Part shown: piece by piece, positions 306-45,028 of the stretch
Layout of the letters: each line of letters opens with the position of its first letter
Position numbering within the stretch: position 1 is the stretch's first letter
Source: Pseudobutyrivibrio sp. YE44
Lineage (GTDB): Bacteria > Bacillota > Clostridia > Lachnospirales > Lachnospiraceae
Direction of reading: 5' to 3'
NCBI RefSeq assembly: GCF_900104335.1
Contig: NZ_FMXT01000001.1
Span: 124,001 to 188,000 of the forward strand
DNA length: 64,000 nucleotides
Program-made: the position numbers and the translations under genes
The notes under the pieces: generated by a model
Told to the model about the DNA's origin: nothing
Databases searched by the model: none
Seen by the model: only the letters and a program-made list of their open reading frames with translations

Positions 306-464
306 ACCCCTCATCAGTCAGCTAAAGCTGACAGCTTTTTCTCCGCTTCCGCTCCGGTCGGCTCGGATCAGAGGTCCACTGGACCTCTCTCGCCCCCAGG
401 GGGAAGCCAGAGAATGAGCCTTCCCCTTAAGGGGAAGGGGGACCGCTTGCGGTGGATGAGGTGT
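306..464. repeat. Complete MITE-like palindromic repeat (copy R1)
   Basis: This 159-bp element is GC-rich against an AT-rich background. Its ends are inverted repeats, ACCCCTCATC (306-315) and GATGAGGTGT (455-464), 9 of 10 matching. Inside are five palindromes: GTCAGC-TAAA-GCTGAC (317-332), GAGGTCC-ACT-GGACCTC, CCCC-CA-GGGG, CCTTCCCC-TTAA-GGGGAAGG (419-438) and ACCG-CTTG-CGGT (442-453). Bases 332-408 match the reverse complement of 37878-37954 at 67 of 77 positions without gaps. Bases 419-464 match 30430-30473. There is no coding capacity, and I could not define a target-site duplication. Confidence 0.8.
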
Positions 465-480
465 TATATTAGCACAATGG

Positions 481-522
481 AGTGCAGTTTAAAGTAGAGA
501 TGCTTTAGACTGCACTTTTTTT
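481..522 (+). terminator. Rho-independent terminator between glnN and amt
   Basis: AGTGCAGTTTAAAG (481-494) pairs with CTTTAGACTGCACT (503-516) through 14 pairs including one G-U, followed by seven T. It ends only 24 bases before the amt start codon. It could end glnN transcription, or act as an attenuator in an amt leader, since little room remains for a promoter after it. Confidence 0.8.
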
Positions 523-546
523 AATAAAAACTAGGAGGAAAATATT

Positions 547-2292
547 ATGGAAGAGTACACAAGTTTATTATTTGGTGTGTGGTTCCTTATAGGAGCTGCA
601 CTGGTTTTCTGGATGCAGGCAGGCTTTGCAATGGTTGAGGCTGGCTTTACCAGAGCAAAAAATACAGGAAACATCATTATGAAAAACTTAATGGATTTCT
701 GTATTGGAACAGTAATGTTCATTGTATTAGGTTTTGGTCTTATGCTTGGAGAGGATTGTCTCTTTGGTTTAGTAGGTAGACCAACACTTGGAATTTTTAC
801 AAACTATGCTTCTTTTGATTGGAGCAACTTTGTATTTAACCTTGTGTTCTGTGCTACAACAGCAACAATCGTTTCTGGTGCTATGGCAGAGCGTACAAAG
901 TTTGTTAGCTACTGTGTTTATTCAGGAATTATTTCACTTGTAATTTATCCAATCGAGGCTCACTGGATTTGGGGTGGTGGCTGGCTTGCACAGCTTGGTT
1001 TCCACGATTTTGCAGGTAGCTGTGCTATTCATATGGTTGGTGGTATCTGTGCTCTTATCGGTGCAAAGATTCTTGGACCTCGTATTGGTAAGTTTTCACA
1101 CGACAGCAAAGGTCGTATTTCAAAGGTAAATGCTTTCCCAGGTCACAACATTGCTCTTGGTGCACTTGGTGTATTTATTCTTTGGCTTGGCTGGTATGGC
1201 TTCAACGGTGCTGCAGCAACATCTTTAGAGCAGCTTGCTTCAATTTTTGTTACAACAACAATTGCTCCTGCAGTTGCTACTTGTACAACAATGGCTTTCA
1301 CATGGATTAAGTTTGGTAAGCCAGATGTATCAATGTCATTAAATGCTTCACTTGCAGGTCTTGTAGCTATCACAGCCCCATGCGACGTTACAGATGCTTT
1401 CGGTGCTATTGTAATTGGTGTTGTTGCAGGTTTCCTTGTAGTATTTGGTGTATGGCTTCTTGACTATAAGCTTCATATTGATGATCCAGTTGGTGCTGTT
1501 GCAGTTCACATGATGAATGGTATCTGGGGAACAATTGCAGTTGGTTTATTTGCTACACCTTCAGCTCCAGCAAGTGAGCTTACAGGTCTTTTCTATGGCG
1601 GTGGCTTCAAGCTTTTAGGTTTACAGCTTCTTGGTGTTCTTTCAGTAGGAGCATGGGCTGCTGTTACAATTACAATTTCATTTTCTGTTATTAAGGCTAC
1701 TATCGGTCTTCGTGCTTCAGCTGAGGAAGAAATCGTTGGTCTTGATAGAACGGAGCATGGTCTTCCATCAGCATATTCAGGCTTTAACATGCTTGAGGAC
1801 GACTTCGATACAGATGAGTATGATGATGAGACAGCATCACTTATTACAGAGACTCTTGAGGCTGCTGGACTTGCAAGCCCTGATGAGGCAATTGAGGTTG
1901 AATATGCGCCTTCACAGATTACATCTGCAGGCAGACCTCGTATGACAAAGGTTGAAATCCTTTGTAAGGAGCGTAACCTTGAGAAACTTAAGAATGCACT
2001 TCTTAAGCTTGGAATTACAGGTATGACAGTTTCACACGTAATGGGCTGTGGCGTACAGAAGGGTGCACCAGAGTATTACAGAGGTGTTGCTTTGGAGCCA
2101 TCATTACTTCCAAAGATTCGTGTAGACGTAGTAGTATGCAAGGTTCCAGTTAAAGAAGTAATCGAAACAGCTAAGAAGGTTCTTTATACAGGTCACATTG
2201 GTGATGGTAAGATTTTCGTATACGACGTAGAGCAGGTTGTAAAGATTCGTACAGGCGAAGAAGACTTTGCAGCTCTTCAGGATGTAGAATAA
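547..2292 (+). CDS. amt: Ammonium transporter fused to a PII signal-protein domain
   Basis: The first 400 or so residues are an Amt/MEP/Rh ammonium channel: hydrophobic throughout, with MQAGFAMVEAGFTRAKN near the start, IYPIEAHWIWGGGWL, HMVGGICALIGA and the pore-histidine segment VHMMNGIWGT. An acidic linker follows. From about residue 466 to the end there is a complete GlnB/GlnK domain starting MTKVEILCKERN, with a T-loop containing EYYRG and a C-terminal GDGKIFVYDVEQVVKIRTGE. PII normally plugs Amt as a separate protein, so here the valve is covalently attached. The start follows AGGAGG (533-538) by eight bases. The gene lies downstream of glutamine synthetase. The assignment is confident; the regulatory behaviour is inferred. 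Confidence 0.93.
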   Translation: MEEYTSLLFGVWFLIGAALVFWMQAGFAMVEAGFTRAKNTGNIIMKNLMDFCIGTVMFIVLGFGLMLGEDCLFGLVGRPTLGIFTNYASFDWSNFVFNLVFCATTATIVSGAMAERTKFVSYCVYSGIISLVIYPIEAHWIWGGGWLAQLGFHDFAGSCAIHMVGGICALIGAKILGPRIGKFSHDSKGRISKVNAFPGHNIALGALGVFILWLGWYGFNGAAATSLEQLASIFVTTTIAPAVATCTTMAFTWIKFGKPDVSMSLNASLAGLVAITAPCDVTDAFGAIVIGVVAGFLVVFGVWLLDYKLHIDDPVGAVAVHMMNGIWGTIAVGLFATPSAPASELTGLFYGGGFKLLGLQLLGVLSVGAWAAVTITISFSVIKATIGLRASAEEEIVGLDRTEHGLPSAYSGFNMLEDDFDTDEYDDETASLITETLEAAGLASPDEAIEVEYAPSQITSAGRPRMTKVEILCKERNLEKLKNALLKLGITGMTVSHVMGCGVQKGAPEYYRGVALEPSLLPKIRVDVVVCKVPVKEVIETAKKVLYTGHIGDGKIFVYDVEQVVKIRTGEEDFAALQDVE

Positions 2293-2351
2293 TAACTAAT
2301 TAATTTCAGTAAAAACAAATTTCTCGTTTCAAACAAAACAACGTTCAGATT

Positions 2352-2379
2352 GGCTTCCACTTTTTGGTGGAAGCCTTTT
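2352..2379 (+). terminator. Terminator after amt
   Basis: GGCTTCCAC and GTGGAAGCC form a perfect 9-bp stem with a six-base loop, followed by TTTTG. Confidence 0.85.
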
Positions 2380-2446
2380 GTTTACATGGAAATTTAGGTA
2401 ACGTATAATGATTATGGGGATTGTTAACGTAAGAATGGGGGTTCTT

Positions 2447-3175
2447 ATGAGGATATCGGAAATCACTTCTGCAAATAAGCCTTATATTCGTATTACAAAA
2501 GGTAAGAAAAAGGTAGATGTTCCTATTGTTCCTAAGGTCGTGGCGGTACCACCTAGCAAATTAGGTCTGAGAAAATTTGCTTTTTTAGGTTGCGATAATA
2601 TCAAGGTCACCTTTAAAGGTAAGACTGTGAGACTCAATTGGGCCTTTAATCACAATCGAATGACCCTATATTGTACAGGAGGGCATAAGGCCTACAGCTG
2701 GAACAATGTTAAGGTTGCCACAATCAATTCTAGTAAAGGCAAAAGAGAGCATCTTATTGTCTGCAGACGAGAATTTGGTGATGAGACAGAACGCAGAAGA
2801 TATAAGAGATATCCTATAATTAGAAAAATCAAAGTCACCCAAGGGGACTACAGTTTTATGGCCTCTACAGCAGATATTTCCTATGGCGGAGTGGGAATTT
2901 CAGTTAAGAGAAATACAAGGGTTATCCCTAGTGAACCTCTCGTAATTGATTTTGGGGATTCCACTATAATCAGTGCCCGTCTGGTTAGAACTGTATTTAA
3001 AGAAGATGGTAGTGAATTGCTAGGTTGTCACATCTCAAAGGGCTATAAGTTCGAGATGATGAAAATAGTAAATCATGATGAAGCTGTGGCGGAATCCTTG
3101 AAAGTCAAAGAAAAAGAAAATAAAAAGGATACTGACAAAGGGTGGACTGAAGGCGAAATTAAGCGTTGGCACTGA
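2447..3175 (+). CDS. PilZ domain c-di-GMP receptor
   Basis: The C-terminal half carries both signature elements of a PilZ c-di-GMP-binding domain: an arginine-rich ERRRYKRYPI at about residue 115 and TADISYGGVGI at about residue 142. The N-terminal 110 residues are basic and beta-rich and I do not recognise them; they could be a YcgR-N-like partner domain. I chose the ATG at 2447 because GGGGG lies six bases upstream; in-frame ATGs at 2408, 2414 and 2435 have weaker sites. The gene stands alone after a terminator, 20 bases before a HAD phosphatase gene. An EAL-domain c-di-GMP protein is encoded at 33.1 kb. The effector target is unknown. Confidence 0.8.
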   Translation: MRISEITSANKPYIRITKGKKKVDVPIVPKVVAVPPSKLGLRKFAFLGCDNIKVTFKGKTVRLNWAFNHNRMTLYCTGGHKAYSWNNVKVATINSSKGKREHLIVCRREFGDETERRRYKRYPIIRKIKVTQGDYSFMASTADISYGGVGISVKRNTRVIPSEPLVIDFGDSTIISARLVRTVFKEDGSELLGCHISKGYKFEMMKIVNHDEAVAESLKVKEKENKKDTDKGWTEGEIKRWH

Positions 3176-3195
3176 TTAGAATTGGAGACAGATTT

Positions 3196-3987
3196 ATGAT
3201 TAAGCTTATTACATCAGATGTAGATGGAACCCTAGTAAAGGATTCATCTCCGGAAATATATCCTGAGATGATTGATATGATAAAGAAGCTTCGTCAGCAG
3301 GATATTATTTTTTGTATAGCCACTGGCAGACAGGTTTCAAGTGTTAAAAGAATGTTTAGCGAAGTGGCAGATGACTTAATTATCATGGCTGACAACGGTG
3401 CGCATATTCAGTGCCGAGAAAAGGATATTCATGTTGCAAAGATGAATCCTGATTATATAGAAGAATTGGTTACTGATCTTAGAGCCTTTGATGATTGCGA
3501 GATTCTCTGCGAGGCTCCAGGTTTATCGTACTTGGAATCAAAGAATCAGGATTACATCGATTTTATTCAGAATCAGTATCGCTTTGATATTAAGCTTGTG
3601 GATGATGTACTTAAGGAAGCTAAGGATATTATCAAGATTTCTATTTTCAGAAGACCATCCATCAGAAGCATTGGAGAGGATATTCTTATTCCTAAGTGGA
3701 AGGATAGACTTAAGGTAACAATGGCAGGAGAGGATTGGGTAGATTTTATGGATACCTCTGTGGATAAGGGAAATTCTCTCAAGTTTGTTCAGGAATTCTA
3801 TGGAATCACACCAGAGGAAACTATGGTATTTGGTGACAATAATAACGATATTGGAATGCTTAAGAGAGCAGCTGAAAGCTACGCAGTATCCACAGCTCCA
3901 GATATTGTAAAGGCAAGTGCAAATCACATTTGTCCTCCTTGGATGGAAAAGGGTGTATATCAGGTTTTAAAGGAAACTTTCGGCTAG
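3196..3987 (+). CDS. Cof-type HAD-IIB phosphatase
   Basis: This 263-residue protein belongs to the Cof subfamily of haloacid-dehalogenase phosphatases. Motif I is DVDGTL (residues 8-13, nucleophile Asp8), motif II is the IATGRQ segment, and motif IV is GDNNND near residue 215. The length and the cap inserted between motifs II and III are typical. These enzymes hydrolyse sugar phosphates, flavin or PLP phosphates with broad overlap, so the substrate cannot be given. The start ATG at 3196 follows TTGGAG; a longer frame from 3166 has no good site. It is followed closely by larB, but a role in that pathway is only guilt by position. Confidence 0.85.
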   Translation: MIKLITSDVDGTLVKDSSPEIYPEMIDMIKKLRQQDIIFCIATGRQVSSVKRMFSEVADDLIIMADNGAHIQCREKDIHVAKMNPDYIEELVTDLRAFDDCEILCEAPGLSYLESKNQDYIDFIQNQYRFDIKLVDDVLKEAKDIIKISIFRRPSIRSIGEDILIPKWKDRLKVTMAGEDWVDFMDTSVDKGNSLKFVQEFYGITPEETMVFGDNNNDIGMLKRAAESYAVSTAPDIVKASANHICPPWMEKGVYQVLKETFG

Positions 3988-4013
3988 ATTTTAATACAGA
4001 GTGAGAATGGGAA

Positions 4014-4688
4014 ATGGAGTTTGCAAACTTAGATTTTGATAGAAAGAGGCGCACAGGTTTTCCTGAGGTGGTTTTTTGTCAGGGGAAGGATGACAGCTTT
4101 TTAGTTGATATTTATAAAAAGCTTTATGATAGAGACGGCTGTGTCTTTGGTACTAGAGCCACTGAGCATCAGTTTGAGCTAATAAGGGCTAGTATGTCAA
4201 AGGCAGAATACGACAGAGTCAGCCGTATACTAAAGGTGCCCGCAGCAAATCACAGTGAAATAGAATTGGTTGGAAACATTGCTGTTGTCACTGCAGGAAC
4301 AGCAGATATTCCAGTGGCAGAGGAAGCAGCCATGACAGCTGAGTATTTTGGCTCAAAGGTTAGCAGAGTTTACGACGTTGGAGTAAGCGGTGTTCACAGA
4401 CTTCTAGACAAAAGAGAAATCATTGATGAAGCTAACTGTGTAGTGGCAGTGGCTGGTATGGAAGGTGCACTGGCTTCTGTTTTGGGAGGGCTTGTTAGTA
4501 AGCCTATTATTGCGGTGCCTACAAGTGTTGGATATGGTGCCAACTTTGGCGGTTTATCAGCGCTTCTTACAATGATAAATTCCTGTGCAAACGGAATATC
4601 TGTGGTGAATATTGATAATGGCTACGGTGCAGGTTATATTGCCACCCAGATAAATCGACTAGCAGTAGGTGAAAAAAACGATAAATAG
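4014..4688 (+). CDS. larB: LarB, nickel-pincer cofactor biosynthesis (P2CMN synthase)
   Basis: The 224-residue protein has the LarB layout: an N-terminal VVFCQGK segment and a C-terminal AIR-carboxylase (PurE-like) fold with AVPTSVGYGANFGGLSALL. LarB carboxylates the pyridinium ring of nicotinic acid adenine dinucleotide and hydrolyses the anhydride, the first step to the nickel-pincer cofactor of lactate racemase-type enzymes. larC follows after nine bases. larA and larE are not in the window, so either they lie elsewhere or the cofactor serves another LarA-family enzyme. Confidence 0.9.
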   Translation: MEFANLDFDRKRRTGFPEVVFCQGKDDSFLVDIYKKLYDRDGCVFGTRATEHQFELIRASMSKAEYDRVSRILKVPAANHSEIELVGNIAVVTAGTADIPVAEEAAMTAEYFGSKVSRVYDVGVSGVHRLLDKREIIDEANCVVAVAGMEGALASVLGGLVSKPIIAVPTSVGYGANFGGLSALLTMINSCANGISVVNIDNGYGAGYIATQINRLAVGEKNDK

Positions 4689-4697
4689 GGAGATGGG

Positions 4698-5570
4698 ATG
4701 AAGGCATTATATTTTGAGTGTAGTTCAGGTATTAGTGGGGATATGACAGTAGGAGCCCTACTTGATTTAGGCGCAGATGTTCAGGTGCTAAACAAGGCGC
4801 TTTCTTCTATCAAGGCAGAGGGCTTTCAAACAAGGATTTCAAAGGTTGAAAAATCTGGTCTTAGGTGTGTGGATTTTGATGTGATTTTGGATGAGGATCA
4901 TGATGGCCATGATCATGATATGGAATATCTTTATGGCCATACACACAATCACGAGAGTCATGATAATCATAACCATAATCATGACGAGCATTCACATACC
5001 CATGAGGCTCAGCCTCATGACGAACATCATAAGCACCATCATGAAAAGCATCATCACCGTGGTCTAAAAGAAATAAATGATATTATTTCATCAGTAGACA
5101 TGACAGATGGTGCTAGAAATATTTGTAATAATATTTTTCAAGTATTGGCTGAGGCAGAGTCCAAGGCACACGGAGTTCCTGTGGACCAAGTTCATTTTCA
5201 CGAGGTTGGAGCAATAGACTCTATAGTGGATATTGTTTCTATTTCAGTTTGTCTGGATAACATAGGAATTGATAAGGTATTTGTTCCAAAGCTTACAGAT
5301 GGGCAAGGAACTGTACGCTGTCAGCACGGGATTCTTCCAGTTCCAGTACCTGCTGTTTTAAACATAGTTAACGCTGCTGATATTCCAATAGAAATTACAG
5401 AGACAAAGGGAGAGCTTGTTACCCCAACAGGCGCAGCCACAGTAGCTGCTGTAAGAACCAGCGAACAATTGCCAGAGTCCTTTAACGTGGAAGGAGTAGG
5501 CATGGGGGCAGGAAAAAGAGACTATGGATTATCCGGAATCCTTAGAATTATGAAAATCAATTATTATTAG
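4698..5570 (+). CDS. larC: LarC-like nickel insertion protein, N-terminal (LarC1) part only
   Basis: The start MKALYFECSSGISGDMTVGALLDLGAD and the central HFHEVGAIDSIVDIV are characteristic of LarC, the CTP-dependent nickel inserter for the pincer cofactor. Between about residues 70 and 125 lies a histidine-rich loop of HDH/HNH pairs, a likely nickel store. The protein ends at residue 290, just after the GAGKRDYG segment. Full LarC continues for about 130 residues (LarC2), joined in some species by a programmed frameshift. I found no LarC2 coding after 5570 in any frame before the next promoter, so this copy looks truncated or split from its second half. Confidence 0.85.
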   Translation: MKALYFECSSGISGDMTVGALLDLGADVQVLNKALSSIKAEGFQTRISKVEKSGLRCVDFDVILDEDHDGHDHDMEYLYGHTHNHESHDNHNHNHDEHSHTHEAQPHDEHHKHHHEKHHHRGLKEINDIISSVDMTDGARNICNNIFQVLAEAESKAHGVPVDQVHFHEVGAIDSIVDIVSISVCLDNIGIDKVFVPKLTDGQGTVRCQHGILPVPVPAVLNIVNAADIPIEITETKGELVTPTGAATVAAVRTSEQLPESFNVEGVGMGAGKRDYGLSGILRIMKINYY

Positions 5571-5683
5571 GTTAGTTACATTGGAAATGTGTACACAATT
5601 TTGACTCAAATTAGTTCATTTAGACGGATGTTAGTCTAATAAAACTTGAAAATGCACTAGTTTAGGTACAATAATAATTGTTC

Positions 5684-5712: not shown

Positions 5713-5768
5713 CAACTTACTTAGTAATTGATAGTTTTTATCAAAAAGATTTTAAGGAGGATTTAATT

Positions 5769-5939: not shown

Positions 5940-5977
5940 TTAGTTTAATAACTAAACTAGAAATCCGGTAAAATAAG

Positions 5978-30422: not shown

Positions 30423-30429
30423 AATTTTT

Positions 30430-30473
30430 GCCTTCTCCTTGAGGAGAAGGTGCCCGAAGGGCGGATGAGGTGT
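30430..30473. repeat. Half-copy of the palindromic repeat (R2) supplying a Shine-Dalgarno
   Basis: Hairpin CCTTCTCC-TTGA-GGAGAAGG (30431-30450), mini-hairpin GCCC-GAA-GGGC, then GATGAGGTGT (30464-30473). It aligns with 419-464 of copy R1. The paired change C-G to T-A in the first stem keeps pairing. GAGGTG lies three bases before the ATG at 30476 and is the only ribosome-binding site for that gene. Confidence 0.75.
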
Positions 30474-30475
30474 TT

Positions 30476-33019
30476 ATGAAATCAGTTTGGGGAATAATGG
30501 CTCACGTGGATGCAGGCAAAACTACTTTGTCTGAAGCCATTTTATATAATGCAGGAAAAATAGCGTCTATTGGTCGAGTAGACCATGGGGACGCTTTTTT
30601 AGATACAGATAATCAAGAAAAAAATCGCGGGATTACTATTTTTACTAAGCCTGCAATTTTCGATTATGAGGGAGAAGAGTTTACTCTCTTAGACACTCCT
30701 GGTCATGTGGATTTTTCAACTGAGGCGGAGCGTGCCATATGGGCGTTGGATTATGCAATTCTTTTGATTTCTGGTACTGACGGTGTTCAGGCTCACACAA
30801 AGACTATATTTAAATTGCTTAGGGATAACAGCATTCCTACACTTATTTTTATAAACAAAACTGATATGCCTCAGGTGGAACTGTCGCAAATTATGAGCGA
30901 CTTGAAAAGTCAGATTTCAGATAAATGCGTTTTCGCAGATGATTATGAAGCTATGGCTTTATCAGACGAAGCAACCATGGAGGAGTTTTTAGATACTGAA
31001 AAGTTAAGCTCAGCTACAGTTACTAATCTCATTAATTCCTTGAAGGTTTATCCTGTATATTCAGGTTCAGCTCTTAAAAACCAAGGAGTAGATTTATTGA
31101 TGAAGGCTATGACAAATCTTTCAGGTTCGGTGAAACGTCCAGAGGATTTTGGTGGAAGAATCTACAAGATAGAAAGCTTAGGCCGAGATGTAAGGCTAAG
31201 CTTTATGAAGGTTACTGGTGGAAGTCTCCAGGTGAAGAGCATGTTGTCAAACCAGGAGAAGGTCAACGAGCTTCGACTATATTCAGGTGAGAAATACACT
31301 CAGGTGGATGAGGTTTTTGCTGGTGATGTAGTGGCCCTTGTTGGACCTAAAGAAACCTTCGCAGGCCAAGGCCTTGGTATAGAAGAAAACAGACCAGAGC
31401 TTTCCTTGACACCAGTTCTTTCTTATGAGCTTAAATTCTTAGATGATACAGTTCCAAGAGTTGCTTATCCAAAGCTTTGTGCTCTTAACGAGGAAGACCC
31501 ATCCTTAAGCGTTTCCTGGGATGAAAAAGCCGAGCAGATAAGAATGAATCTTATGGGAGAGGTTCAAACAGAAATTCTTGTTAATAGAATTAAAGAAGGG
31601 CTTGGTTATCAGGTAGAGTTTATTGAGGCAGGTGTTTTATACAAAGAGGCCTTGAAAGATAAGGTGGAGGGTGTAGGACATTTTGAACCATTACGCCATT
31701 ATGCCGAGGTCCATTTATTGATGGAGCCCCAGCCGGAGGGAAGTGGTATAAGCGTTGAAGCTGATGTGTCAGTAGATGCTTTGGCTCTTAACTGGCAGCG
31801 ACTTATTGAGACACACATCCTTGAAAAGGAACATCTTGGAACATCTATTGGTGCACCTATAACGGATGTGAAGTATACAATTATTGGAGGCAAAGCCCAC
31901 ATTAAGCACACAGAAGGTGGCGATTTTAGAGAGGCAACCTACAGAGCAATTCGTCAAGGATTTATGGAAGCAGGCACGGAAATTTTAGAACCATATTTTC
32001 GTTTTGAAATGACAATTCCAACTTCAGCAGTTGGAAGAGCTATGACTGACATCGAAGCCATGAGTGGCACCTTTGAAGCACCTGAAGATTTTAATAATAT
32101 GTCTATTCTTCGAGGCGTAGCACCTGCAGTTGAAATCAGAAATTATAGTGCTAAGCTGGTGGCTTTTACAAAGGGGGAAGGCAGATTGTCATTAGTGTTT
32201 GACGGTTACAAAAAATGTCACAACTCTGAACAGGTCATAGAAGCCTACGGTTATAATCCTGATGCTGATGTGGATAATCCTGCAGCTTCAGTTTTCTGTT
32301 CTCATGGAGCAGCCACCATTGTTCCTTGGCAGGAGGTTAAAGAACATTGCCATGTGTCATGTCTTTCTGATAAGTCAGAACTTTCTCAGGAAATGGATGT
32401 GGCAAAAAGAATGAATCACTCTGTTGATGAATGGCTGGATCCAGATGAAATCGACAAGATTCTTGCTATGGCAACCCATAGCAATCAGGGAAAGAATCCC
32501 AAAAAAGGATGGCACTATGGTGAGGGAAACCGGCCAAGGAGAGTGGATTCGGACTATGTGTACAAAGCGCCTAAGGAGATTAAGCCTAGAGAAAAATATC
32601 TTCTTGTAGATGGCTACAATTTGATATATGCATGGCCTGAGCTTAAGGAAGTTTTGGAGGTTAATCTTGATGGAGCAAGGGGAAAGCTTCTAGATATCCT
32701 TAGCAATTATAAAGCCATGACAGACTATAATGTGATTGCGGTTTTTGACGCCTATAGGGTTAAGGGCCATCCGGTAGAAGCCAGTGATTATCTTAACATC
32801 CATCAGGTATTCACTGCGGAGGCTCAAACTGCGGATGCATATATTGAGAGATTTACCCACGAGCACGGCAAAAAATATGACATAACCGTAGTTACCTCAG
32901 ATGGCCTGGAACAGGTGATTATACGTGGTGCAGGGGCAAGACTTATTTCTTCCAGAGAGTTTATAGAAGAGGTGGAGCGACAGGCAATCCTACTCCGCGA
33001 ACAATTTGATATAAAATAG
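30476..33019 (+). CDS. TetM/EF-G-like translational GTPase fused to a Rae1/YacP-like NYN nuclease domain
   Basis: Residues 1-665 match ribosomal protection-type translation factors (TetM/TetO, EF-G fold): AHVDAGKTTLSEAIL (G1), RGITI (G2), DTPGHVDF (G3), NKTD (G4), then domains II-V. A basic linker with GWHYGEGNRPRR leads to residues 707-847, which look like the YacP/Rae1 NYN (PIN-like) domain: LLVDGYNLIYAWPELK, FDAYRVKGH, FTAEAQTADAYIERF and TSDGLEQVI, with the conserved acidic residues. Rae1 of Bacillus subtilis cleaves mRNA in the ribosomal A site, so the fusion would place a nuclease on a ribosome-binding GTPase. ATG 30476 is used because its Shine-Dalgarno lies in repeat R2. It is probably a housekeeping factor, not an acquired resistance gene. 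Confidence 0.88.
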   Translation: MKSVWGIMAHVDAGKTTLSEAILYNAGKIASIGRVDHGDAFLDTDNQEKNRGITIFTKPAIFDYEGEEFTLLDTPGHVDFSTEAERAIWALDYAILLISGTDGVQAHTKTIFKLLRDNSIPTLIFINKTDMPQVELSQIMSDLKSQISDKCVFADDYEAMALSDEATMEEFLDTEKLSSATVTNLINSLKVYPVYSGSALKNQGVDLLMKAMTNLSGSVKRPEDFGGRIYKIESLGRDVRLSFMKVTGGSLQVKSMLSNQEKVNELRLYSGEKYTQVDEVFAGDVVALVGPKETFAGQGLGIEENRPELSLTPVLSYELKFLDDTVPRVAYPKLCALNEEDPSLSVSWDEKAEQIRMNLMGEVQTEILVNRIKEGLGYQVEFIEAGVLYKEALKDKVEGVGHFEPLRHYAEVHLLMEPQPEGSGISVEADVSVDALALNWQRLIETHILEKEHLGTSIGAPITDVKYTIIGGKAHIKHTEGGDFREATYRAIRQGFMEAGTEILEPYFRFEMTIPTSAVGRAMTDIEAMSGTFEAPEDFNNMSILRGVAPAVEIRNYSAKLVAFTKGEGRLSLVFDGYKKCHNSEQVIEAYGYNPDADVDNPAASVFCSHGAATIVPWQEVKEHCHVSCLSDKSELSQEMDVAKRMNHSVDEWLDPDEIDKILAMATHSNQGKNPKKGWHYGEGNRPRRVDSDYVYKAPKEIKPREKYLLVDGYNLIYAWPELKEVLEVNLDGARGKLLDILSNYKAMTDYNVIAVFDAYRVKGHPVEASDYLNIHQVFTAEAQTADAYIERFTHEHGKKYDITVVTSDGLEQVIIRGAGARLISSREFIEEVERQAILLREQFDIK

Positions 33020-35334: not shown

Positions 35335-35363
35335 TTTCACTGAATTAAATATATTGTTGAGTA

Positions 35364-35530
35364 TAGGTGCTCATGGGGTTCGTATATACGAATCGGGTAT
35401 GAGTGAAAAGGGAATCTGGTGAGAATCCAGAGCGAAGCCGTCACTGTGTTAGGGAGTTTGCTTTTATATCACTGAGTTATTTGGGAAGAGGAAGCAAATG
35501 ATGATCGAAGTCAGGAGACCTGCCTATTCT
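35364..35530 (+). promoter_or_regulatory. Cobalamin (B12) riboswitch aptamer
   Basis: The leader has the conserved cobalamin aptamer elements in order: a paired 5' part with GGTGCTCATGGGG, GGTGAGAATCC (35418-35428), AGCCGTCACTG, GGGAAGAGG, and the B12 box AGTCAGGAGACCTGCC (35509-35524). It lies upstream of cbiK and the whole cob operon. Binding of adenosylcobalamin or another corrinoid should reduce expression of uptake and synthesis genes. With its platform it accounts for the 344 bases between the EAL gene and cbiK. Confidence 0.93.
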
Positions 35531-35581
35531 TGTATCTAAGATTTGCGGACTTTCGAATCTTGATTCTATTATTTGAGAATT

Positions 35582-36877: not shown

Positions 36878-37434
36878 TGAAGAAGAAATTATTCACACTT
36901 TTATTAACAACAATTATGACTATTTCTCTTGTAGCCTGTGGAACTTCACAGACTACAGAGAAGGAGTCCTCAGAAGCAACTGTAGAACAGACAACAGAAA
37001 CAGAGCAGGAGCCTGATACAGAAGAAGAGGAAGCTACTGAGCCTACAGAAGTTTCAGATGCTGCTGCTCTTGAAGATGGAGTATACCAGGTGGATTTCAC
37101 TACTGACAGTGGTATGTTCCACGTTAATGAGGCTATGAATGGTCACGGAGCCCTTACTGTAGAGGATGGAAAGATGACTGTTCATATTTCTCTTGTATCA
37201 AAGAAGATTTTAAATCTTTATGTTGGTCTAGCGGCTGATGCTGAAGGAGACGAAGCAAACTGGCTTCAGCCAACAGAAGATGAGATTACTTATGAAGATG
37301 GAACAACTGACACAGTATATGGTTTTGATGTTCCTGTAGAAAATCTTGATGAGGAATTTGACTTAGCACTTATCGGTGAGAAGGGCACTTGGTATGATCA
37401 CAAGGTAAGCGTTTCAAATCCTGTTGCACAATAA
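36877..37434 (+). CDS. Lipoprotein with the same domain as the N-terminus of the BtuF-like protein
   Basis: The 185-residue protein has a lipoprotein signal ending SLVAC (Cys21), an acidic Thr/Glu linker, and a beta-rich domain with GVYQVDFTTDSGMFHVNEA, TVEDGKMTVHISLVSKK and GFDVPVENLDEEFDLAL. The next protein carries a related domain at its N-terminus (VETDGKRTVELIWSSSNY and FTIPFAEYDKAFKV). I know this domain type from clostridial metal/tetrapyrrole-uptake lipoproteins but can name no ligand. Its start overlaps the cbiK stop (TAATG), so it is translationally coupled and probably binds a corrinoid, cobalt or a tetrapyrrole at the surface. Confidence 0.7.
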   Translation: MKKKLFTLLLTTIMTISLVACGTSQTTEKESSEATVEQTTETEQEPDTEEEEATEPTEVSDAAALEDGVYQVDFTTDSGMFHVNEAMNGHGALTVEDGKMTVHISLVSKKILNLYVGLAADAEGDEANWLQPTEDEITYEDGTTDTVYGFDVPVENLDEEFDLALIGEKGTWYDHKVSVSNPVAQ

Positions 37435-37453
37435 GAACCGGAAGAGGTGTCTT

Positions 37454-39070
37454 TTGAAGAAAAAATTAGTATTTTTTGCTGCAGTGCTGGCTATTTGCTT
37501 AACAGCCTGCAGCTTTTTTAATAAAACTGAACAAGATAACAAGCTGCAGAGTGTAAGTGATAACTCTGTAGTTACATATAGCTGTCAGGTTTCACTTTCA
37601 GGTGGCAGTGGAAGAGCTTCCGTAAACTCTCCAGCTACCGTCGTGGAGACTGATGGCAAGAGGACTGTGGAATTGATTTGGTCAAGCTCCAACTATGACT
37701 ATATGTTAGTGGAAGGGCAGCGTTTTGATAATGAAGCTTCTGAAGGTGATAATTCCAAGTTTACAATTCCTTTTGCAGAATATGACAAGGCCTTTAAGGT
37801 AATTGGTGATACCACAGCCATGAGCCAGCCTCATGAGATTGAGTATGAGCTGACGGTATCTTCGCCAAAAACTTCAGGGCTTCCCCTTGAGGGCGAAGGA
37901 GGTCCGGGGGACCTCCGATCTGAGCCGACCGTAGCGGAAGCGGAGAAGAAGCTGACTGATGAGGTGTCTTCTGCGGAAGCGGAGAAGAAGCTGTCAGAAG
38001 CCCTAAAAAAATCCGGTCTGTCCAAAACAGGTTCAATGACCCTTGAATATGCCACACAGTATACAGTCGACTATTTTGAGGATGGCTCAAAAAAACAGTA
38101 TGCTCTTATTACCATCGGCTCTGGAGATTACACACAGCACTTTTTAAAATCCTTAAAAAATGCACCTGAGCCTAAAGGATTATCAAGTGACATAACCTTT
38201 TTGGGATCAGTGGACAAAACCTACCTTGTTTCCACTTCTGTAATGGATTTAATCTCATCTGTTGATGCTTTAGACAATATCAGCTTTACAGGCACAAAAG
38301 CCAGTGAATGGTATGTCTCTTCTGCAAAGAAGAGTATGAAAAAGGGCGACATTATCTACGCTGGAAAGTATTCAGCTCCTGATTATGAATTGCTTCTAAC
38401 AGATGAGTGTAATTTGGCCATTGAAAACACAATGATTTATCATACTCCGGCGGTAAAAGAAAAACTTGAAAGTCTGGGCATTCCAGTAATGGTCGAGTTG
38501 TCCAGCTACGAAAGTCATCCTCTTGGAAGATTGGAATGGATTAAGCTTTACGGTCTTTTGTATGATAAAATGGAAGAAGCAGATAACGTATTTACGAAGC
38601 AGGTAAAGGGCGCCACAGCCTTTAGCAACACAGGCACACCAGAAAAGAGTGTGGCAGTGTTTTCGGTTACCTCTAAGGGAATTTTTGTAATTAGAAAGCC
38701 AGGAGATTATATTGCCACAATGATTAATATGGCAGGTGGTAAATATGTTCCTGAAAAGATAAAGGGCACTGATGAAAATGCTCTTTCTACCATGAAGATA
38801 ACATCAGAAGATTTCTTCATATACGCAGGTGACGCGGATATTTTGATATACAATAGCACTGTTGAGGGTGAAGTGGAATCCACTATGGATCTTATCAAAA
38901 AGAACCAGATTCTTGCTGATTTTAAGGCTGTTAAAGACGGCCAGGTGTATTGTTTATCAAAGGAATACTTCCAGGCAAGTTCAAATGTGGCGGAGTTCAT
39001 TGAAGATATGAATAAAGTGCTTAATGGACAGACGGATTCTTTGACTTATATCTTTAAGCTTAAGGAGTAA
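37454..39070 (+). CDS. btuF: BtuF-like corrinoid-binding lipoprotein with an extra N-terminal domain
   Basis: The TTG at 37454 is preferred: GAGGTG lies just upstream and it yields a clean lipoprotein signal (KKKLVFFAAVLAICLTAC). Residues 35-140 are a beta domain shared with the preceding lipoprotein. Residues about 142-181 are encoded by palindromic repeat R3 plus a partial tandem copy (AEAEKKL occurs twice). Residues 200-538 form a helical-backbone periplasmic binding domain of the BtuF/FhuD class: GDIIYAGKYSAPDYELLL, LGIPVMVELSSYESHPLGR, ILIYNSTVEGEVESTM. The permease and ATPase genes follow directly. Specificity for corrinoids is inferred from the operon. Confidence 0.85.
   Translation: MKKKLVFFAAVLAICLTACSFFNKTEQDNKLQSVSDNSVVTYSCQVSLSGGSGRASVNSPATVVETDGKRTVELIWSSSNYDYMLVEGQRFDNEASEGDNSKFTIPFAEYDKAFKVIGDTTAMSQPHEIEYELTVSSPKTSGLPLEGEGGPGDLRSEPTVAEAEKKLTDEVSSAEAEKKLSEALKKSGLSKTGSMTLEYATQYTVDYFEDGSKKQYALITIGSGDYTQHFLKSLKNAPEPKGLSSDITFLGSVDKTYLVSTSVMDLISSVDALDNISFTGTKASEWYVSSAKKSMKKGDIIYAGKYSAPDYELLLTDECNLAIENTMIYHTPAVKEKLESLGIPVMVELSSYESHPLGRLEWIKLYGLLYDKMEEADNVFTKQVKGATAFSNTGTPEKSVAVFSVTSKGIFVIRKPGDYIATMINMAGGKYVPEKIKGTDENALSTMKITSEDFFIYAGDADILIYNSTVEGEVESTMDLIKKNQILADFKAVKDGQVYCLSKEYFQASSNVAEFIEDMNKVLNGQTDSLTYIFKLKE
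37878..37967. repeat. Palindromic repeat copy R3 inside a coding sequence
   Basis: This 90-bp partial copy is inverted relative to R1. Bases 37878-37954 match the reverse complement of 332-408 (67 of 77), and the end GATGAGGTGT lies at 37958-37967. It is read through in frame (30 codons) in the BtuF-like gene. A perfect 21-bp direct repeat (37934-37954 and 37973-37993, spacing 39 bases, 13 codons) shows a further in-frame duplication of its edge. Confidence 0.85.
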
Positions 39071-39073
39071 TTT

Positions 39074-40865: not shown

Positions 40866-40893
40866 CTCTTTTTATAGGGCAAGAGGTGATATT

Positions 40894-42408
40894 TTGTCAA
40901 AAGTTATTATGGTACAGGGCACAATGTCCAACGTTGGAAAGAGTCTAATTGTAGGAGGCTTGTGTCGTATATTTTCCCAGGATGGCTATAAGGTTGCACC
41001 TTTTAAATCTCAGAATATGGCTCTTAATTCTTTTGTAACAGCAGATGGTTTGGAGCTTGGAAGGGCTCAAGCTATGCAGGCTGAATGTGCCAAGGTGGCA
41101 CCGAGCGTGTACATGAACCCTATTCTTTTAAAGCCTACAAATGATGTGGGCTCCCAGGTGATTGTAAATGGTGAAGTAGTGGGCAATATGAGTGCAGTGG
41201 ACTATTTTGCCTACAAGAAGAAACTAATCCCTGATATAATGACAGCCTTTAGAAAGCTGGAGGAATGGGCAGACATTATAGTGATTGAAGGGGCTGGATC
41301 CCCTGCAGAAATAAACCTTAAAGCCGATGATATTGTAAATATGGGTATGGCAAAGCTGGTGGATGCTCCAGTGTTATTGGTGGGAGACATCGATAGGGGT
41401 GGTGTTTTTGCACAGCTACTTGGTACCCTTGAACTTTTAGAGACTGATGAAAGAGACCGAGTAAAGGGTCTTATTATAAACAAATTTAGAGGGGATAAAT
41501 CTCTTTTAGATTCAGGAATTGACATGATTGAGGATATGGGTAAGGTGCCTGTTGTAGGTACAGTTCCATATACTCAGCTACAGATTGATGATGAGGATAG
41601 TCTTAGTGAAAGATTATCTAATAGTCATGGGAATATTAGTGAAGTTGGCCCTGATTTAATTCAGATTATGGTTATCAGACTTCCTCACATCTCAAATTTT
41701 ACAGATGTGGCACCATTTGAAAGTATTCCTGGTGTGAAGGTTACCTTCACCACTAATCCTAGGGATTTAGAAAAGGCAGACCTTGTGATTATCCCTGGTA
41801 GTAAAAATACCCTTGGAGATATGAGATGGCTTAGAGAATCTGGAATGGAGGCAGCCCTTCGGAAGATATCAGTGGTAAAACCTGTTGTAGGTATTTGTGG
41901 CGGTTTCCAGATGATGGGAAGTTCTATATCAGATCCTTTTGGAGTGGAAGAAGGCGGAACCATCAGAGGTCTTGAATTATTGCCTCTTGAGACACAGCTG
42001 AATGGACAGAAATATCGTAGTCAGACAGAGGATTGCTTCGATGATTTGACTGGACCATATGAAAACCTATCAGGTCTTAACTTTGTAGGCTATGAGATTC
42101 ATAACGGAAATACGATAATTTCTGGAGATAACTGTCCTTCTGTTGTGGAACAGGATGATGAAGGAAATATTATTTTGGTTCAGGAAGGTAATATCCTAGG
42201 CACCTATGTCCACGGTATATTTGATAATGAAGATATTGCCTACAGAATAGTGGAAGGTTTGGCTATGGCAAAGGGAGTTGCTTTCGCTGACAGTGAACCT
42301 TTTGATTATCAGGAATTCAAAGAAAAAGAATATGACAAGCTGGCAGCTGTGCTGCGAGAAAATCTTGATATGGAATATATTTATGGATTATTAAAGGCTT
42401 CTCCTTGA
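40894..42408 (+). CDS. cobQ: Cobyric acid synthase
   Basis: The 504-residue glutamine-dependent amidotransferase (also CbiP) amidates the b, d, e and g carboxylates of adenosylcobyrinic acid diamide. N-terminal motifs are VQGTMSNVGKSL (P-loop-like) and FKSQNMALNSFVT. The glutaminase part has GICGGFQMMG with the nucleophile Cys and GTYVHGIFD with the catalytic His. The start is TTG after AGAGGTGAT. The last codons and the stop (Lys-Ala-Ser-Pro-stop) lie inside the hairpin of repeat R4, so the original C-terminus has probably been altered. Confidence 0.95.
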   Translation: MSKVIMVQGTMSNVGKSLIVGGLCRIFSQDGYKVAPFKSQNMALNSFVTADGLELGRAQAMQAECAKVAPSVYMNPILLKPTNDVGSQVIVNGEVVGNMSAVDYFAYKKKLIPDIMTAFRKLEEWADIIVIEGAGSPAEINLKADDIVNMGMAKLVDAPVLLVGDIDRGGVFAQLLGTLELLETDERDRVKGLIINKFRGDKSLLDSGIDMIEDMGKVPVVGTVPYTQLQIDDEDSLSERLSNSHGNISEVGPDLIQIMVIRLPHISNFTDVAPFESIPGVKVTFTTNPRDLEKADLVIIPGSKNTLGDMRWLRESGMEAALRKISVVKPVVGICGGFQMMGSSISDPFGVEEGGTIRGLELLPLETQLNGQKYRSQTEDCFDDLTGPYENLSGLNFVGYEIHNGNTIISGDNCPSVVEQDDEGNIILVQEGNILGTYVHGIFDNEDIAYRIVEGLAMAKGVAFADSEPFDYQEFKEKEYDKLAAVLRENLDMEYIYGLLKASP

Positions 42409-42495
42409 GGAGAAGCTGTAATGTAAGCATAGCTTACTAGGGCACAAAAGTTGATTACTAAAGTAATCATCCTTTTGACCCATGTGATGAGGTGT
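42397..42495. repeat. Palindromic repeat copy R4 between cobQ and cbiC
   Basis: Hairpin GCTTCTCC-TTGA-GGAGAAGC (42397-42416), then GTAAGC-ATA-GCTTAC-like, GATTAC-TAAA-GTAATC enclosed by CAAAAG/CTTTTG, then GATGAGGTGT (42486-42495). The first loop provides the cobQ stop codon TGA (42406-42408), and GAGGTG is the Shine-Dalgarno of cbiC eight bases before its ATG. It is a variant arrangement: the first stem and the end match R1 and R2, the middle does not. Confidence 0.7.
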
Positions 42496-42502
42496 AATTA
42501 TT

Positions 42503-43132
42503 ATGGATGCTATTGAGTACGTCTTACCAACAGAAATTGAAAAAAGAAGCTTCGAAATCATTGGTCAGGAGCTGAGTGAAATGGGAATAGTCCTTGATCC
42601 TATTCAGGAACCTATTACCAAAAGAGTCATTCATACCAGCGCAGATTTTGATTATGCCTCTACCATGAGATATTCAAAGGACGCAATAGAAATTGCCCAT
42701 AACCTTATTAGAAATGGAGCAGACATTGTTACAGACACCAACATGGCAAAGGCTGGCATCAACAAGAAAAAGCTAGAAAGCTTCGGCGGTCAGGTTCACT
42801 GCTTTATGGCCGATGAGGATGTGGCAGCAGAGGCCAAGGCTCGCCAGGTTACCAGAGCTACTGTATCCATGGAACGAGCTGCCAAGCTGAACAAGCCAGT
42901 GATTTTTGCAATTGGAAATGCCCCAACGGCTCTTATATCTCTTTACGAGCTGATGGAAGCAGGCACCTTTACGCCAGAGTTTGTAATTGGAGTTCCAGTT
43001 GGCTTTGTAAATGTAGTTCCTGCAAAGGAGCTGTTCTTAAATTCGAAGATACCTTACATAATAAATGAAGGACGCAAGGGCGGCAGCAATATTGCAGCCG
43101 CAATATGCAATGCACTTATATACAGCCTATGA
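42503..43132 (+). CDS. cbiC: Cobalt-precorrin-8 methylmutase
   Basis: The 209-residue protein moves the C11 methyl to C12, giving cobyrinic acid (CbiC/CobH family). It has KRVIHTSADFDYASTMRYS with the conserved active-site His, DIVTDTNMAKAGINK, and IGNAPTALISLYELM. Its Shine-Dalgarno comes from repeat R4, and it ends in an ATGA overlap with cbiD. Confidence 0.95.
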   Translation: MDAIEYVLPTEIEKRSFEIIGQELSEMGIVLDPIQEPITKRVIHTSADFDYASTMRYSKDAIEIAHNLIRNGADIVTDTNMAKAGINKKKLESFGGQVHCFMADEDVAAEAKARQVTRATVSMERAAKLNKPVIFAIGNAPTALISLYELMEAGTFTPEFVIGVPVGFVNVVPAKELFLNSKIPYIINEGRKGGSNIAAAICNALIYSL

Positions 43133-44241
43133 AAAAAGGATTTACTACGGGGAGCTGCAGTGCTGCGGCTGCAAAGGCAGCCGCCTATATGCTGCTTTCT
43201 GGAAAAGAGAAAAATCAAATAGAGATAGAGACTCCGGCAGGCGTGATGTTTAAGGCTGAGCTGGTGGATATCGTAAGAGATGAAGGCAGCGTTAGCTGTG
43301 CAGTGATAAAGGATGGTGGAGATGATCCGGATGTTACCACAGGGGCACATGTTAAGGCTACAGTGACTGTAAGGGCTGAGGGAGAGGAAGATGCCTTCTT
43401 GGAGCCGGTGATTGAAATCGATGGTGGAAAGGGTGTTGGAAGAGTGACTCTGCCAGGTCTTGATCAGCCGGTGGGAAATGCAGCTATAAACAGTGTTCCA
43501 CGGTCTATGATTGAAAAAGAGGTGCTGGAGGTTTGCCATCTGTTGGATTTTAAAGGAAAGCTTCTAGTGGAGATTTCTGTGCCTGAGGGTGAGAAGATTG
43601 CTGAGCATACATTCAACCCTAGACTTGGAATTACTGGTGGCATTTCAATCCTTGGTACAACTGGAATTGTTGAGCCTATGAGTAACAAGGCTCTTGTTGA
43701 TACAATCCGAGTGGAGCTAAATCAAAAAAAGTCATTAGGAAATAATATTGCTTTTGTCTCTCCGGGAAACTATGGCCTAAAGTTTATGAAGGAACAGTTT
43801 GATTATGATTTGGATAAAAGTGTAAAGTGTTCAAACTTTATTGGTGAGACTGTGGATATGGCTTGTGAACTTGGATTTGAAACCATGGTTTTAACAGGGC
43901 ACATAGGAAAGCTGGTTAAGGTAGCTGGAGGAATTATGAACACCCACTCCCACGAGGCAGATGCCAGAATGGAAATCCTTTCAAGCTGCGCTTTGAGAGC
44001 AGGAGCAGATGCTGATATAGCCAGAGCAGTTTTAGAGTGCCTTAACACAGAGGAAGCCTTAAGGATGATTAAAGAAAAAGGCTTGCTTGAGGAGACTATG
44101 AAGATAGTTTTGGAAAAGATTATCTTTTATTTGAACTTTAGAGCACAGGGAAGAATAAAGTTTGAGTGTGTTCTTTATAGCAATGAATTCGGAATATTGG
44201 CTGAGACTGAGGGGGCCGGAGAAGCCTTCAAAAGGAGTTAG
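43129..44241 (+). CDS. cbiD: Cobalt-precorrin-5B C1-methyltransferase
   Basis: The 370-residue protein starts KKGFTTGSCSAAAAKAAAY, the CbiD hallmark, with ITGGISILGTTGIVEPMS and VLTGHIGKLVKVAGGIMNTH further on. CbiD methylates C1 during ring contraction. The ATG at 43129 overlaps the cbiC stop (ATGA); a frame from 43105 would read eight codons into cbiC and lacks a site. Confidence 0.95.
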   Translation: MKKGFTTGSCSAAAAKAAAYMLLSGKEKNQIEIETPAGVMFKAELVDIVRDEGSVSCAVIKDGGDDPDVTTGAHVKATVTVRAEGEEDAFLEPVIEIDGGKGVGRVTLPGLDQPVGNAAINSVPRSMIEKEVLEVCHLLDFKGKLLVEISVPEGEKIAEHTFNPRLGITGGISILGTTGIVEPMSNKALVDTIRVELNQKKSLGNNIAFVSPGNYGLKFMKEQFDYDLDKSVKCSNFIGETVDMACELGFETMVLTGHIGKLVKVAGGIMNTHSHEADARMEILSSCALRAGADADIARAVLECLNTEEALRMIKEKGLLEETMKIVLEKIIFYLNFRAQGRIKFECVLYSNEFGILAETEGAGEAFKRS

Positions 44242-44242
44242 A

Positions 44243-45004
44243 ATGGTTTATTTTGTTGGGGCAGGCTGCGGTGCTGCCGATTTGATAACAGTTAGAGGAA
44301 TGAAATTAATTGGGCTTGCGGATGTGATGATTTATGCAGGTTCCCTGGTAAATCCAGAGCTTCTAAATTACGCAAAGGAAGGTTGCCAGATTTACAACAG
44401 TGCCACCATGACCCTAGATGAAGTTTTGGAGGTTATGATCGCTGCAGATAAAGAAGGAAAGACGGTTGTTAGACTTCACACAGGAGAGCCTAGTATTTAT
44501 GGAGCTGTTCAGGAGCAGATGCAGCGACTAGAGGAACAGGGAATTGCCTATGAAAGCTGCCCTGGGGTTAGCGCTTGCTTTGGAGCGGCGGCTAGTCTAA
44601 ACCTAGAATACACCTTGCCAGATGTAAGTCAGTCTCTGATTATTACTCGAATGGAGGGAAGGACAGCAGTTCCACCAAAGGAGTCTATTGAAAGCTTTGC
44701 CAGTCACGGGGCATCAATGGCTATTTATTTAAGTGCTGGAATGTTGGAGGAGCTTCAGGAGAGACTATTAAAGGGTGGATATTCTAAAAATACACCAGCA
44801 GCCATTGTGTACAAGGCAACCTGGCCTGAGGAAGAAAAGTATATTTGTACGGTGGGTACCTTGGCAAATACAGCAAAGGCTAAAAATATTACAAATCTTG
44901 CTGTTATTCTTGTGGGAGATGTGATAGCAAAGTCTAATTATTCTTTAAGTAAGTTGTATGATCCAGAGTTTGAGACGGGATTTAGAAAGGCAACGCCTCA
45001 ATAG
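44243..45004 (+). CDS. cbiF: Cobalt-precorrin-4 C11-methyltransferase
   Basis: The 253-residue SAM-dependent methylase has VYFVGAGCGAADLITVRG (SAM motif I), VRLHTGEPSIYGAVQEQM and CPGVSACFGAAASLNLEYT, as in CbiF/CobM. The ATG at 44243 follows AAAGGAG by five bases, one base after the cbiD stop. A remnant of the palindromic repeat follows before cbiG. Confidence 0.95.
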   Translation: MVYFVGAGCGAADLITVRGMKLIGLADVMIYAGSLVNPELLNYAKEGCQIYNSATMTLDEVLEVMIAADKEGKTVVRLHTGEPSIYGAVQEQMQRLEEQGIAYESCPGVSACFGAAASLNLEYTLPDVSQSLIITRMEGRTAVPPKESIESFASHGASMAIYLSAGMLEELQERLLKGGYSKNTPAAIVYKATWPEEEKYICTVGTLANTAKAKNITNLAVILVGDVIAKSNYSLSKLYDPEFETGFRKATPQ

Positions 45005-45010
45005 ATAATA

Positions 45011-45028
45011 ACACCTCAAGGGGAAGCC
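45011..45028. repeat. Possible remnant of the palindromic repeat (R5)
   Basis: ACACCTC, the terminal sequence, is fused directly to AAGGGGAAGCC. Fifteen bases (CCTCAAGGGGAAGCC) are identical to the reverse complement of 37878-37892 in R3. It lies between cbiF and cbiG. At this length chance similarity cannot be excluded. Confidence 0.4.

Follow-up and report, generated by a model that had tools for sequence, protein, structure and literature searches.

A REP-like repeat family in Pseudobutyrivibrio and its association with genes for small DUF559 nucleases

A 64,000-nt stretch of the genome of Pseudobutyrivibrio sp. YE44 (NCBI RefSeq assembly GCF_900104335.1, contig NZ_FMXT01000001.1, positions 124,001 to 188,000; hereafter the window) contains copies of a dispersed palindromic repeat whose units end in a constant linear tail. 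In other members of the genus, units of the same family flank, in inverted orientation, a small free-standing gene for a protein with the DUF559 domain (PF04480). The family resembles the repetitive extragenic palindromic (REP) sequences and is probably served by this DUF559 nuclease rather than by a REP-associated tyrosine transposase (RAYT) or another HUH transposase. From the sequences we infer both that DUF559 would mobilise the repeats and every catalytic step by which it might do so.

The existence of a dispersed, REP-like palindromic repeat family in the host genome (3.24 Mb in 28 contigs; label G000) is established. Exact GATGAGGTGT tails number 63, with 27 forward and 36 reverse and a few chance tails included, against 1 + 3 for a reversed-pattern control; the stretches around all 63 were examined, with flanks of about 2 kb where the contig permitted. 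A covariance-model search, in which 150 of 1602 first-look candidates were scored, gave 70 matches at E<0.01, a count that includes the 35 model-building sequences and one match overlapping another on the opposite strand. The genome-wide search is what settles the reality of the family, since the tail count of the window alone is not significant (7 at one mismatch vs 3.8 expected, with 10 of 100 shuffles reaching 7). The general plan of the unit comprises a pyrimidine-rich hairpin 1, a linker, hairpin 2 and a linear tail, GATGAGG(TGT/GT); a typical unit is about 51 nt long and one-ended, with hairpin 1 followed by hairpin 2 and then by GATGAGGTGT. The 35 canonical units that were aligned fall, with variants, into subfamily A ([A]GGCTTCYCC-TTGA-GGRGAAGC, T GTCACC-GAA-GGTGAC T, GATGAGGTGT) and subfamily B (GCCTTCYCC-TTGA-GGRGAAGG, TGCCC-GAA-GGGCG, GATGAGGTGT), and long-form units, such as R3 and the left half of R1 (Table 1), carry an additional hairpin module within hairpin 1. 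Most host units are single, inverted pairs occur in both orientations, and 51 of the 63 tails are intergenic according to a crude caller of open reading frames (ORFs). Beyond the host, the model matches at least 14 of 299 sampled Lachnospiraceae genomes, host counted, which is a lower bound because scoring was limited to 19 candidates per genome. An earlier sequence-only reading of the window had described a palindromic family with a modular build and a constant terminal block, placed in genes and at gene junctions, and had suspected similar units in other Lachnospiraceae. These points are borne out, the long forms and the hybrid copy R4 keeping the tail in spite of their altered middles. The MITE-like label attached to the family is to be replaced, as the unit is REP-like. 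Miniature inverted-repeat transposable elements (MITEs) are similarly small, non-coding, dispersed inverted-repeat composites near an enzyme-bearing cassette, whereas the present unit is one-ended and no target-site duplication was identified.

The candidate partner was found in relatives of the host. Some DUF559 match is present in 38 of the 299 genomes of the family sample, full-length only in G153, which belongs to the same genus as the host; the weak matches, most of which cover profile positions of about 66-107, were not counted as full-length. Two model matches closely flank the G153 gene. Among 29 genomes of the genus, 13 have DUF559 matches: twelve of them carry 14 full-length genes between them, and the thirteenth has a broken gene. 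At all 14 full-length loci a model match stands on each side with its tail toward the gene, and the inverted-repeat scores of the flanks range from 39 to 89 against a threshold of 34. The association between DUF559 and the repeats within the genus is strongly supported. The genes are free-standing, about 115-135 codons long, and form cassettes of about 500 bp in which no intron or intein was seen. All 14 cassettes lie in the cobalamin operon, at three junctions (Table 1) that were assigned by DNA matches to the window operon and the Pfam names of the window genes, with the methylase assigned by eye. In one of them (L093), the mechanically called cbiD ORF has its start before the repeat and continues across it; among all loci examined, inside and outside the genus, an ORF also reads into the repeat at L126, L207, L214 and L215. 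Pairs of units without the gene occur as well. Nine tail-to-tail pairs in the genus, among the matches listed, were examined: six (L227, L230-L234) consist of complete units separated by spacers of about 10-16 nt (one of about 43), each different, and three (L226, L228, L229), apparently representing one orthologous site, have a tail alone on one side. The host pair L009 likewise consists of complete units. Such tail-to-tail pairs of complete units are the cassette plan minus the gene. Two pairs from another genus (L235, L236) have their tails outward, as in R1.

Outside the genus, the flanks of DUF559 genes were tested by an inverted-repeat score taken from the domain end, with the same threshold of 34 and with same-locus controls. 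This threshold was picked after earlier flank results and was held fixed beforehand only for the family f39 described below. Genes entered the test with a score of at least 60 over at least 70 profile positions, below which 22 of 67 earlier rows fell; four of these excluded rows represent a single broken gene, that of G312 (L134/L137), and it does not count toward the 14. Of the genus rows that did enter, four more are edge-cut views of genes tested elsewhere. Sixteen of 33 testable loci pass, as opposed to one of 96 control placements, which were drawn from the tested loci with genus loci included (Fisher p 1.6e-10). The passes comprise 4/8 loci of a Bacillota sample (in which 28 of 398 genomes matched DUF559 at 1e-10), 1/6 on viral contigs and 11/19 from plasmid and phage records, these 19 having been hand-picked for variety from 40 hits. 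The test was then applied, with script and threshold unchanged, to the Bacillota family f39, chosen since its genome G640 had contributed one passing and one failing gene to the first set. Here, DUF559 is present at E<=1e-20 in 48 of 151 genomes, and of 29 new loci 27 were testable; 15 pass, vs none of 48 controls (p 7.6e-9). The association outside the genus, at about half of the testable loci, is also strongly supported.

The flanking repeats share a common plan with different spelling in Sinorhizobium (CCCTCTCCCC...GGGGAGAGGG-TTAGGGTGAGGGG), Sphingobium (CCTCCCCG...CGGGGAGG-GGGACCATGC...GTGGAGGGG), Sphingomonas, Novosphingobium, Pseudanabaena, Deinococcus and several Bacillota. Pyrimidine-rich hairpins, by a definition made after the repeats had been seen, lie within 250 nt on both sides of the gene at 24 of 60 loci outside the genus, on one side at 25 and on neither at 11, compared with 14 of 370 control windows; among the loci with a hairpin on one side are the failures of the inverted-repeat test from Photobacterium, Shinella and Synechocystis. 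Some of these repeats are themselves dispersed. The Sinorhizobium flanking repeat occurs at 1060 places in 307 plasmid records, that of Novosphingobium at 6 places in one record and that of D. psychrotolerans at 3. Copies of the C/T-rich palindrome found beside the S. meliloti DUF559 gene are numerous on plasmids of Sinorhizobium and Rhizobium; these palindromes are possibly the Rhizobium-type intergenic mosaic elements (RIME). Sites inside operons recur among DUF559 genes: on Deinococcus plasmids (L209, L216, L217, L218) they occupy several junctions inside hydroxyphenylacetate and phenylacetate catabolism clusters, and in Sphingomonas (L214) the gene lies between transhydrogenase subunit genes. 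Upstream of an E. coli DUF559 gene (L225) stands a long palindrome ending in GAATGAGGTGA, with no matching partner downstream.

A predicted structure of a relative from a viral contig (mean predicted local distance difference test score, pLDDT, 86) shows an EDxHD/Vsr-like nuclease fold for DUF559. Its best Foldseek matches are 3hrl, then the EDxHD homing endonuclease I-Bth0305I (3r3p); mitoribosomal proteins, PvuRts1I/AbaSI and Vsr (1cw0 at E 0.03, 1vsr at E 0.11) follow as weaker ones. At the sequence level, the match to 3hrl is clear and that to 3r3p marginal (E 0.009). The invariant residues of DUF559 include E24, D51, E62, D64, H68 and D77, of which E24, D51, H68 and D77 would fit the EDxHD name, an equivalence assumed from the motif name. 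NCBIfam returns only 'DUF559 domain-containing protein', below its cut-off, and nothing further for the protein or the repeat. With I-Bth0305I the protein shares the fold and the conserved E, D, H and D; it differs in that the DUF559 genes are short, free-standing and placed between inverted hairpin repeats, and because the protein is so short it has no room for the long multi-domain DNA-binding regions known from I-Bth0305I. Vsr and the Caulobacter protein VsrA have a related fold, VsrA itself carrying DUF559 (PMC12907096). The role proposed there is T:G mismatch repair tied to a cytosine methylase, whereas the link here is to repeats.

Combining these observations, the autonomous form of the system would be the cassette, that is, a unit, the DUF559 gene and an inverted unit, and single units together with inverted pairs would constitute the non-autonomous form. 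The nuclease would recognise its cognate hairpin-plus-tail, probably when the latter is extruded or single-stranded, and may cut the unit itself, intergenic targets that separate co-transcribed genes, or both. Repair of the break could then copy units or the whole cassette into it in a homing-like manner. The host genome, which retains the repeats, would have lost, or never kept, the nuclease. REP-like repeats with a flanked enzyme gene are a known kind; the enzyme class is the new part. The REP/REPIN-RAYT systems (REPtrons, with GTAG- or CGTC-tagged REPs) combine short palindromic intergenic repeats of many copies with a constant unpaired end, present as singlets and inverted pairs, and a gene for the enzyme that stands between repeat copies (PMC3733652, PMC3116915). 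All of these features are shared by the present family. It differs in its candidate enzyme, a DUF559 EDxHD nuclease rather than an HUH/Y1 transposase, and in having two hairpins, a GATGAGG tail and, in the host, mostly single units. No description of an association between DUF559 and such repeats was found in the open-access literature searched, subscription papers and preprint servers lying outside the search.

Insertion of the units is visible at sites that are empty in relatives. For R2, Pseudobutyrivibrio sp. MD2005 (L058) has both flanking genes without the unit, leaving a 48-nt alignment gap. The R4 junction lacks the unit in several genus members (e.g., L058, L170, L183 and L189) and has a GATGAGGGT-tailed unit instead in three related ones (L177, L181, L182). 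For R3, which lies within a gene, most of the residues encoded by the unit are missing from five orthologues (two of which do not differ from each other here), in a variable linker where the alignment is gappy. Many surviving insertions lie directly past a stop codon, with the tail GAGGTG taking the place of the following gene's ribosome-binding site. An ATG opening an ORF of at least 60 codons follows within 20 nt of the tail in 23 of 54 units; the same holds for 6 of 54 opposite ends and for 9.7% of positions taken at random. Of the 51 intergenic host tails, 36 share the direction of both adjacent genes, 10 run opposite to both, and 5 have a mixed arrangement.

The stems covary, and the paired changes noticed earlier in the first stem (CCTTCCCC / CCTTCTCC / GCTTCTCC) are real and recurrent: columns 6-25 read G-C in 20 units and C-G in 13, and columns 11-20 read C-G in 17 and T-A in 16. 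Using a two-hairpin structure that was set from the same sequences and 500 shuffles, pairing is found in 96.0% of 472 cells, compared with 82.2 in the shuffles; both partners have changed in 64 cells, compared with 22.5, and covariation scores 0.316, compared with 0.110. None of the 500 shuffles reaches any of these values, and all three signals vanish when the partner is slid. The earlier argument that such changes reveal a maintained fold does not follow from covariation by itself. Inverted repeats can self-correct at the DNA level, and the signal would also be obtained from two subfamilies combined with such palindrome correction. Selection on RNA is not shown by the covariation, because G-U intermediates are rare (5 of 472 cells, vs 64 double changes and 19 unpaired cells).

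Among the genomes of the genus, the type of tail can be compared with the type of enzyme. In the protein tree, clade 1 is supported (95/94) and is joined by the gene of G306; since that of G318 falls outside the main clade 2, the remaining genes are labelled non-clade-1. The CKGATGAGGGT tail is present in 12-61 copies in the nine genomes with a non-clade-1 DUF559 gene and in 0-5 copies in the other 20, which include the genome with the broken gene; the two groups do not overlap (Mann-Whitney p 1e-5). On a genome tree built from four cobalamin-operon proteins and covering 28 of the 29 genomes, the GGGT tail needs 3 changes; the contrasts, 2 if branches must be well supported and 3 if every branch is admitted, are concordant.

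Several results weigh against a DUF559-driven system. The contrasts for the GGGT tail are too few for a test, as the tree needs only 3 changes; in addition, genes were assigned to clades by eye according to protein start and site, and each cassette adds two tails of its own to the count. The relation of CKGATGAGGTG tails to clade-1 DUF559 is weak (Mann-Whitney p 0.011; 0.5/3 independent pairs) in a test that left out G306, which has 11 copies and is clade 1 by the tree, and whose addition weakens it further. The host has 60 CKGATGAGGTG copies and no DUF559 match at E<=0.001, three first-look candidates having failed, which is why the partner was invisible from the window alone. Similarly, G325 (3 contigs) has 35 copies and no DUF559, and G318 has 53 and no clade-1 gene. 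Because all genus cassettes lie in one operon, many of them represent one inherited insertion. In the flank tests, 17 of 33 loci fail (E. coli, both Synechocystis plasmids, Picosynechococcus, Photobacterium, Azospirillum, Shinella, Thermoactinomyces, four Bacillota and five of the six viral loci), as do 12 of the 27 in f39. Two of the passing loci, L138 and L212, score no higher than the threshold of 34 itself, and what matches at L212 is not a hairpin repeat. At the four Deinococcus loci, all of which pass, it is hairpin 1 that adjoins the gene, the opposite orientation. The empty sites of R2 and R4 reveal no obvious target-site duplication, although their flanks are diverged. Two measures of covariation are not clearly raised, namely pairs with a double change (6 vs 4.7 shuffled, 24/500) and further pair types (12 vs 12.2 shuffled, 386/500). 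Finally, the authors of the Caulobacter study read VsrA as a mismatch-repair-type endonuclease (PMC12907096).

Repeats that persist without the gene are read here as old copies outliving their enzyme. The same is predicted if DUF559 is a homing-type parasite that cuts the repeats and is copied into them while something else spreads them, an explanation that we consider unlikely. The EDxHD enzymes form an established family of homing endonucleases (PMC3943268), to which one genome paper assigns a DUF559 gene (PMC9403480); in addition, the host and G325 keep many repeats without DUF559, and repeats greatly outnumber cassettes. What a pure parasite would not lead one to expect is the clean separation, across 29 genomes, of GGGT-tail copy number between those with and without a non-clade-1 gene, few as the independent events are. 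It is improbable that the units are kept chiefly as RNA signals (a terminator, an mRNA stabiliser or a translation signal), with their spread secondary. The covarying stems, the tail GAGGTG, the 23 of 54 units with a nearby ATG and the 36 of 51 co-oriented intergenic tails would suit such a role, whereas sites empty in relatives, patchy presence among genomes and the rarity of G-U intermediates do not. At gathering score, moreover, no Rfam family matches the window copies, the only match in the window being the cobalamin riboswitch at 35348-35541, and none was obtained in three DUF559 loci of relatives. Co-option of some copies as RNA signals is compatible with mobilisation by DUF559.

Mobilisation by a RAYT or an IS200-like HUH transposase, as in classical REPs and REPINs, is very improbable. 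The architecture is that of REPs (a hairpin with a constant linear end, inverted pairs, intergenic placement), and the host has four Y1_Tnp matches. All four, however, are partial matches at the ends of contigs, the gene has next to it a hairpin (AAACCACCGGCTAAGCCGGTGGTTT) that is unlike the unit, and the GTAG or CGTC tag is absent from the units, whose tails read GATGAGGTGT or GATGAGGGT. By our own reading of their sequences, these partial genes (L054-L057) appear IS200-like, and because they break at contig ends, IS200 copies probably split the host assembly. The sequence-only reading was right to look for an associated enzyme: a DUF559 candidate was found in relatives, and no Y1/RAYT partner was found in the host, to which the Y1 search was confined. 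Coincidence, by which DUF559 genes and hairpin repeats would both gather in permissive intergenic spots, is hardly credible. Hairpins are indeed one-sided at 25 of 60 loci, and all genus cassettes share one operon, but paired inverted hairpins stand at the gene in four phyla and in differing spellings, with almost none at same-locus controls.

On a wider scale, a second enzymatic class of REPs may extend across much of the bacterial domain, a proposal that we hold in even balance. It would comprise DUF559 EDxHD nucleases and lineage-specific, two-part hairpin-plus-GAGG-tail repeats, with no HUH transposase, and would explain many orphan repeats, including the Sinorhizobium CCCTCTCCC...GGGTGAGGG type. 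The function of DUF559 is unknown although the domain is widespread, and for some families of palindromic repeats no enzyme is known. A link between them assigns to both a role that can be tested, and the nuclease would gain a named candidate substrate within the same few hundred bases. If the proposal is true, REP-like repeats originated at least twice, on the basis of differing enzyme chemistries. A tail doubling as a ribosome-binding site would explain why insertions inside operons are tolerated.

Table 1. Repeat copies in the window and repeat-flanked DUF559 cassettes in the genus
Feature	Position or loci	Strand	Description
R1 left half	304..408	-	Inverted long-form unit, in the order hairpin 2, hairpin 1 (the latter enclosing an additional hairpin); tail ACCCCTCATC leftmost, outward
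R1 right half	417..466	+	Canonical unit; tail GATGAGGTGT at 455-464, outward; 48.2 bits
R2	30429..30475	+	Canonical subfamily B unit, shortly past YitT-family gene; 62.3 bits
R3	37877..37969	+	Long-form unit; 30.4 bits
Partial tandem duplicate of R3 end (GCGGAAGCGGAGAAGAAGCTGTCAG)	37973..37997	+	
R4	42394..42496	+	Hybrid copy at cbiA/cobQ-like / cbiC junction; 27.8 bits for 42395-42426
Second, unrelated repeat within R4	42420..42477	+	
Doubtful remnant	45011..45028	.	Without model match up to E 1
Cassettes at cbiC / cbiD junction	L093, L123, L124, L125, L131		
Cassettes at cbiD / methylase junction	L127-L130, L132, L133, L135, L136		
Cassette at cbiA/cobQ-like / methylase junction	L126		

The four window copies that the sequence-only reading placed at 306-464, 30430-30473, 37878-37967 and 42397-42495 exist as described, and all end in GATGAGGTGT. 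Its 159-bp, two-ended MITE at 306-464 is ruled out, this stretch being a composite of two one-ended units of about 51 nt that stand head to head with their tails outward. The left half is matched by the model at C16:124304-124348 (-) with 26.7 bits, and the arms 332-408 and 37878-37954 are 87% complementary. The fifth copy it had thought possible is at most a deletion remnant.

The tail of R2 includes the Shine-Dalgarno-like GAGGTG and ends two bases ahead of the ATG at 30476 of an EF-G-like gene. The ORF at 30470-33019 (849 residues) joins an EF-G/Tet(M)-like GTPase to a YacP-like NYN nuclease domain at its C-terminus. R3 sits in frame in a linker of low conservation within the periplasmic-binding-protein gene 37424-39070; a homologue of this binding protein with 38% identity occurs in a record titled uncultured Bacteroides (L059), a title that may be wrong. 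R4 is made up of hairpin 1 of the family, the second repeat and the tail GATGAGGTGT at 42486-42495, which ends 7 nt ahead of the cbiC ATG. The second repeat (GTAAGCATAGCTTACTAGGGCACAAAAGTTGATTACTAAAGTAATCATCCTTTTGACCC) has further copies in the host (G000), G325, G313 and G306, notably in G325 and G306. Elsewhere in the window, a single ORF at 547-2292 encodes an ammonium transporter fused to a P-II regulatory domain, and long CAT/CAC-rich tracts at 60962-61242 and 4944-5071 encode His-rich stretches resembling metal-binding segments.

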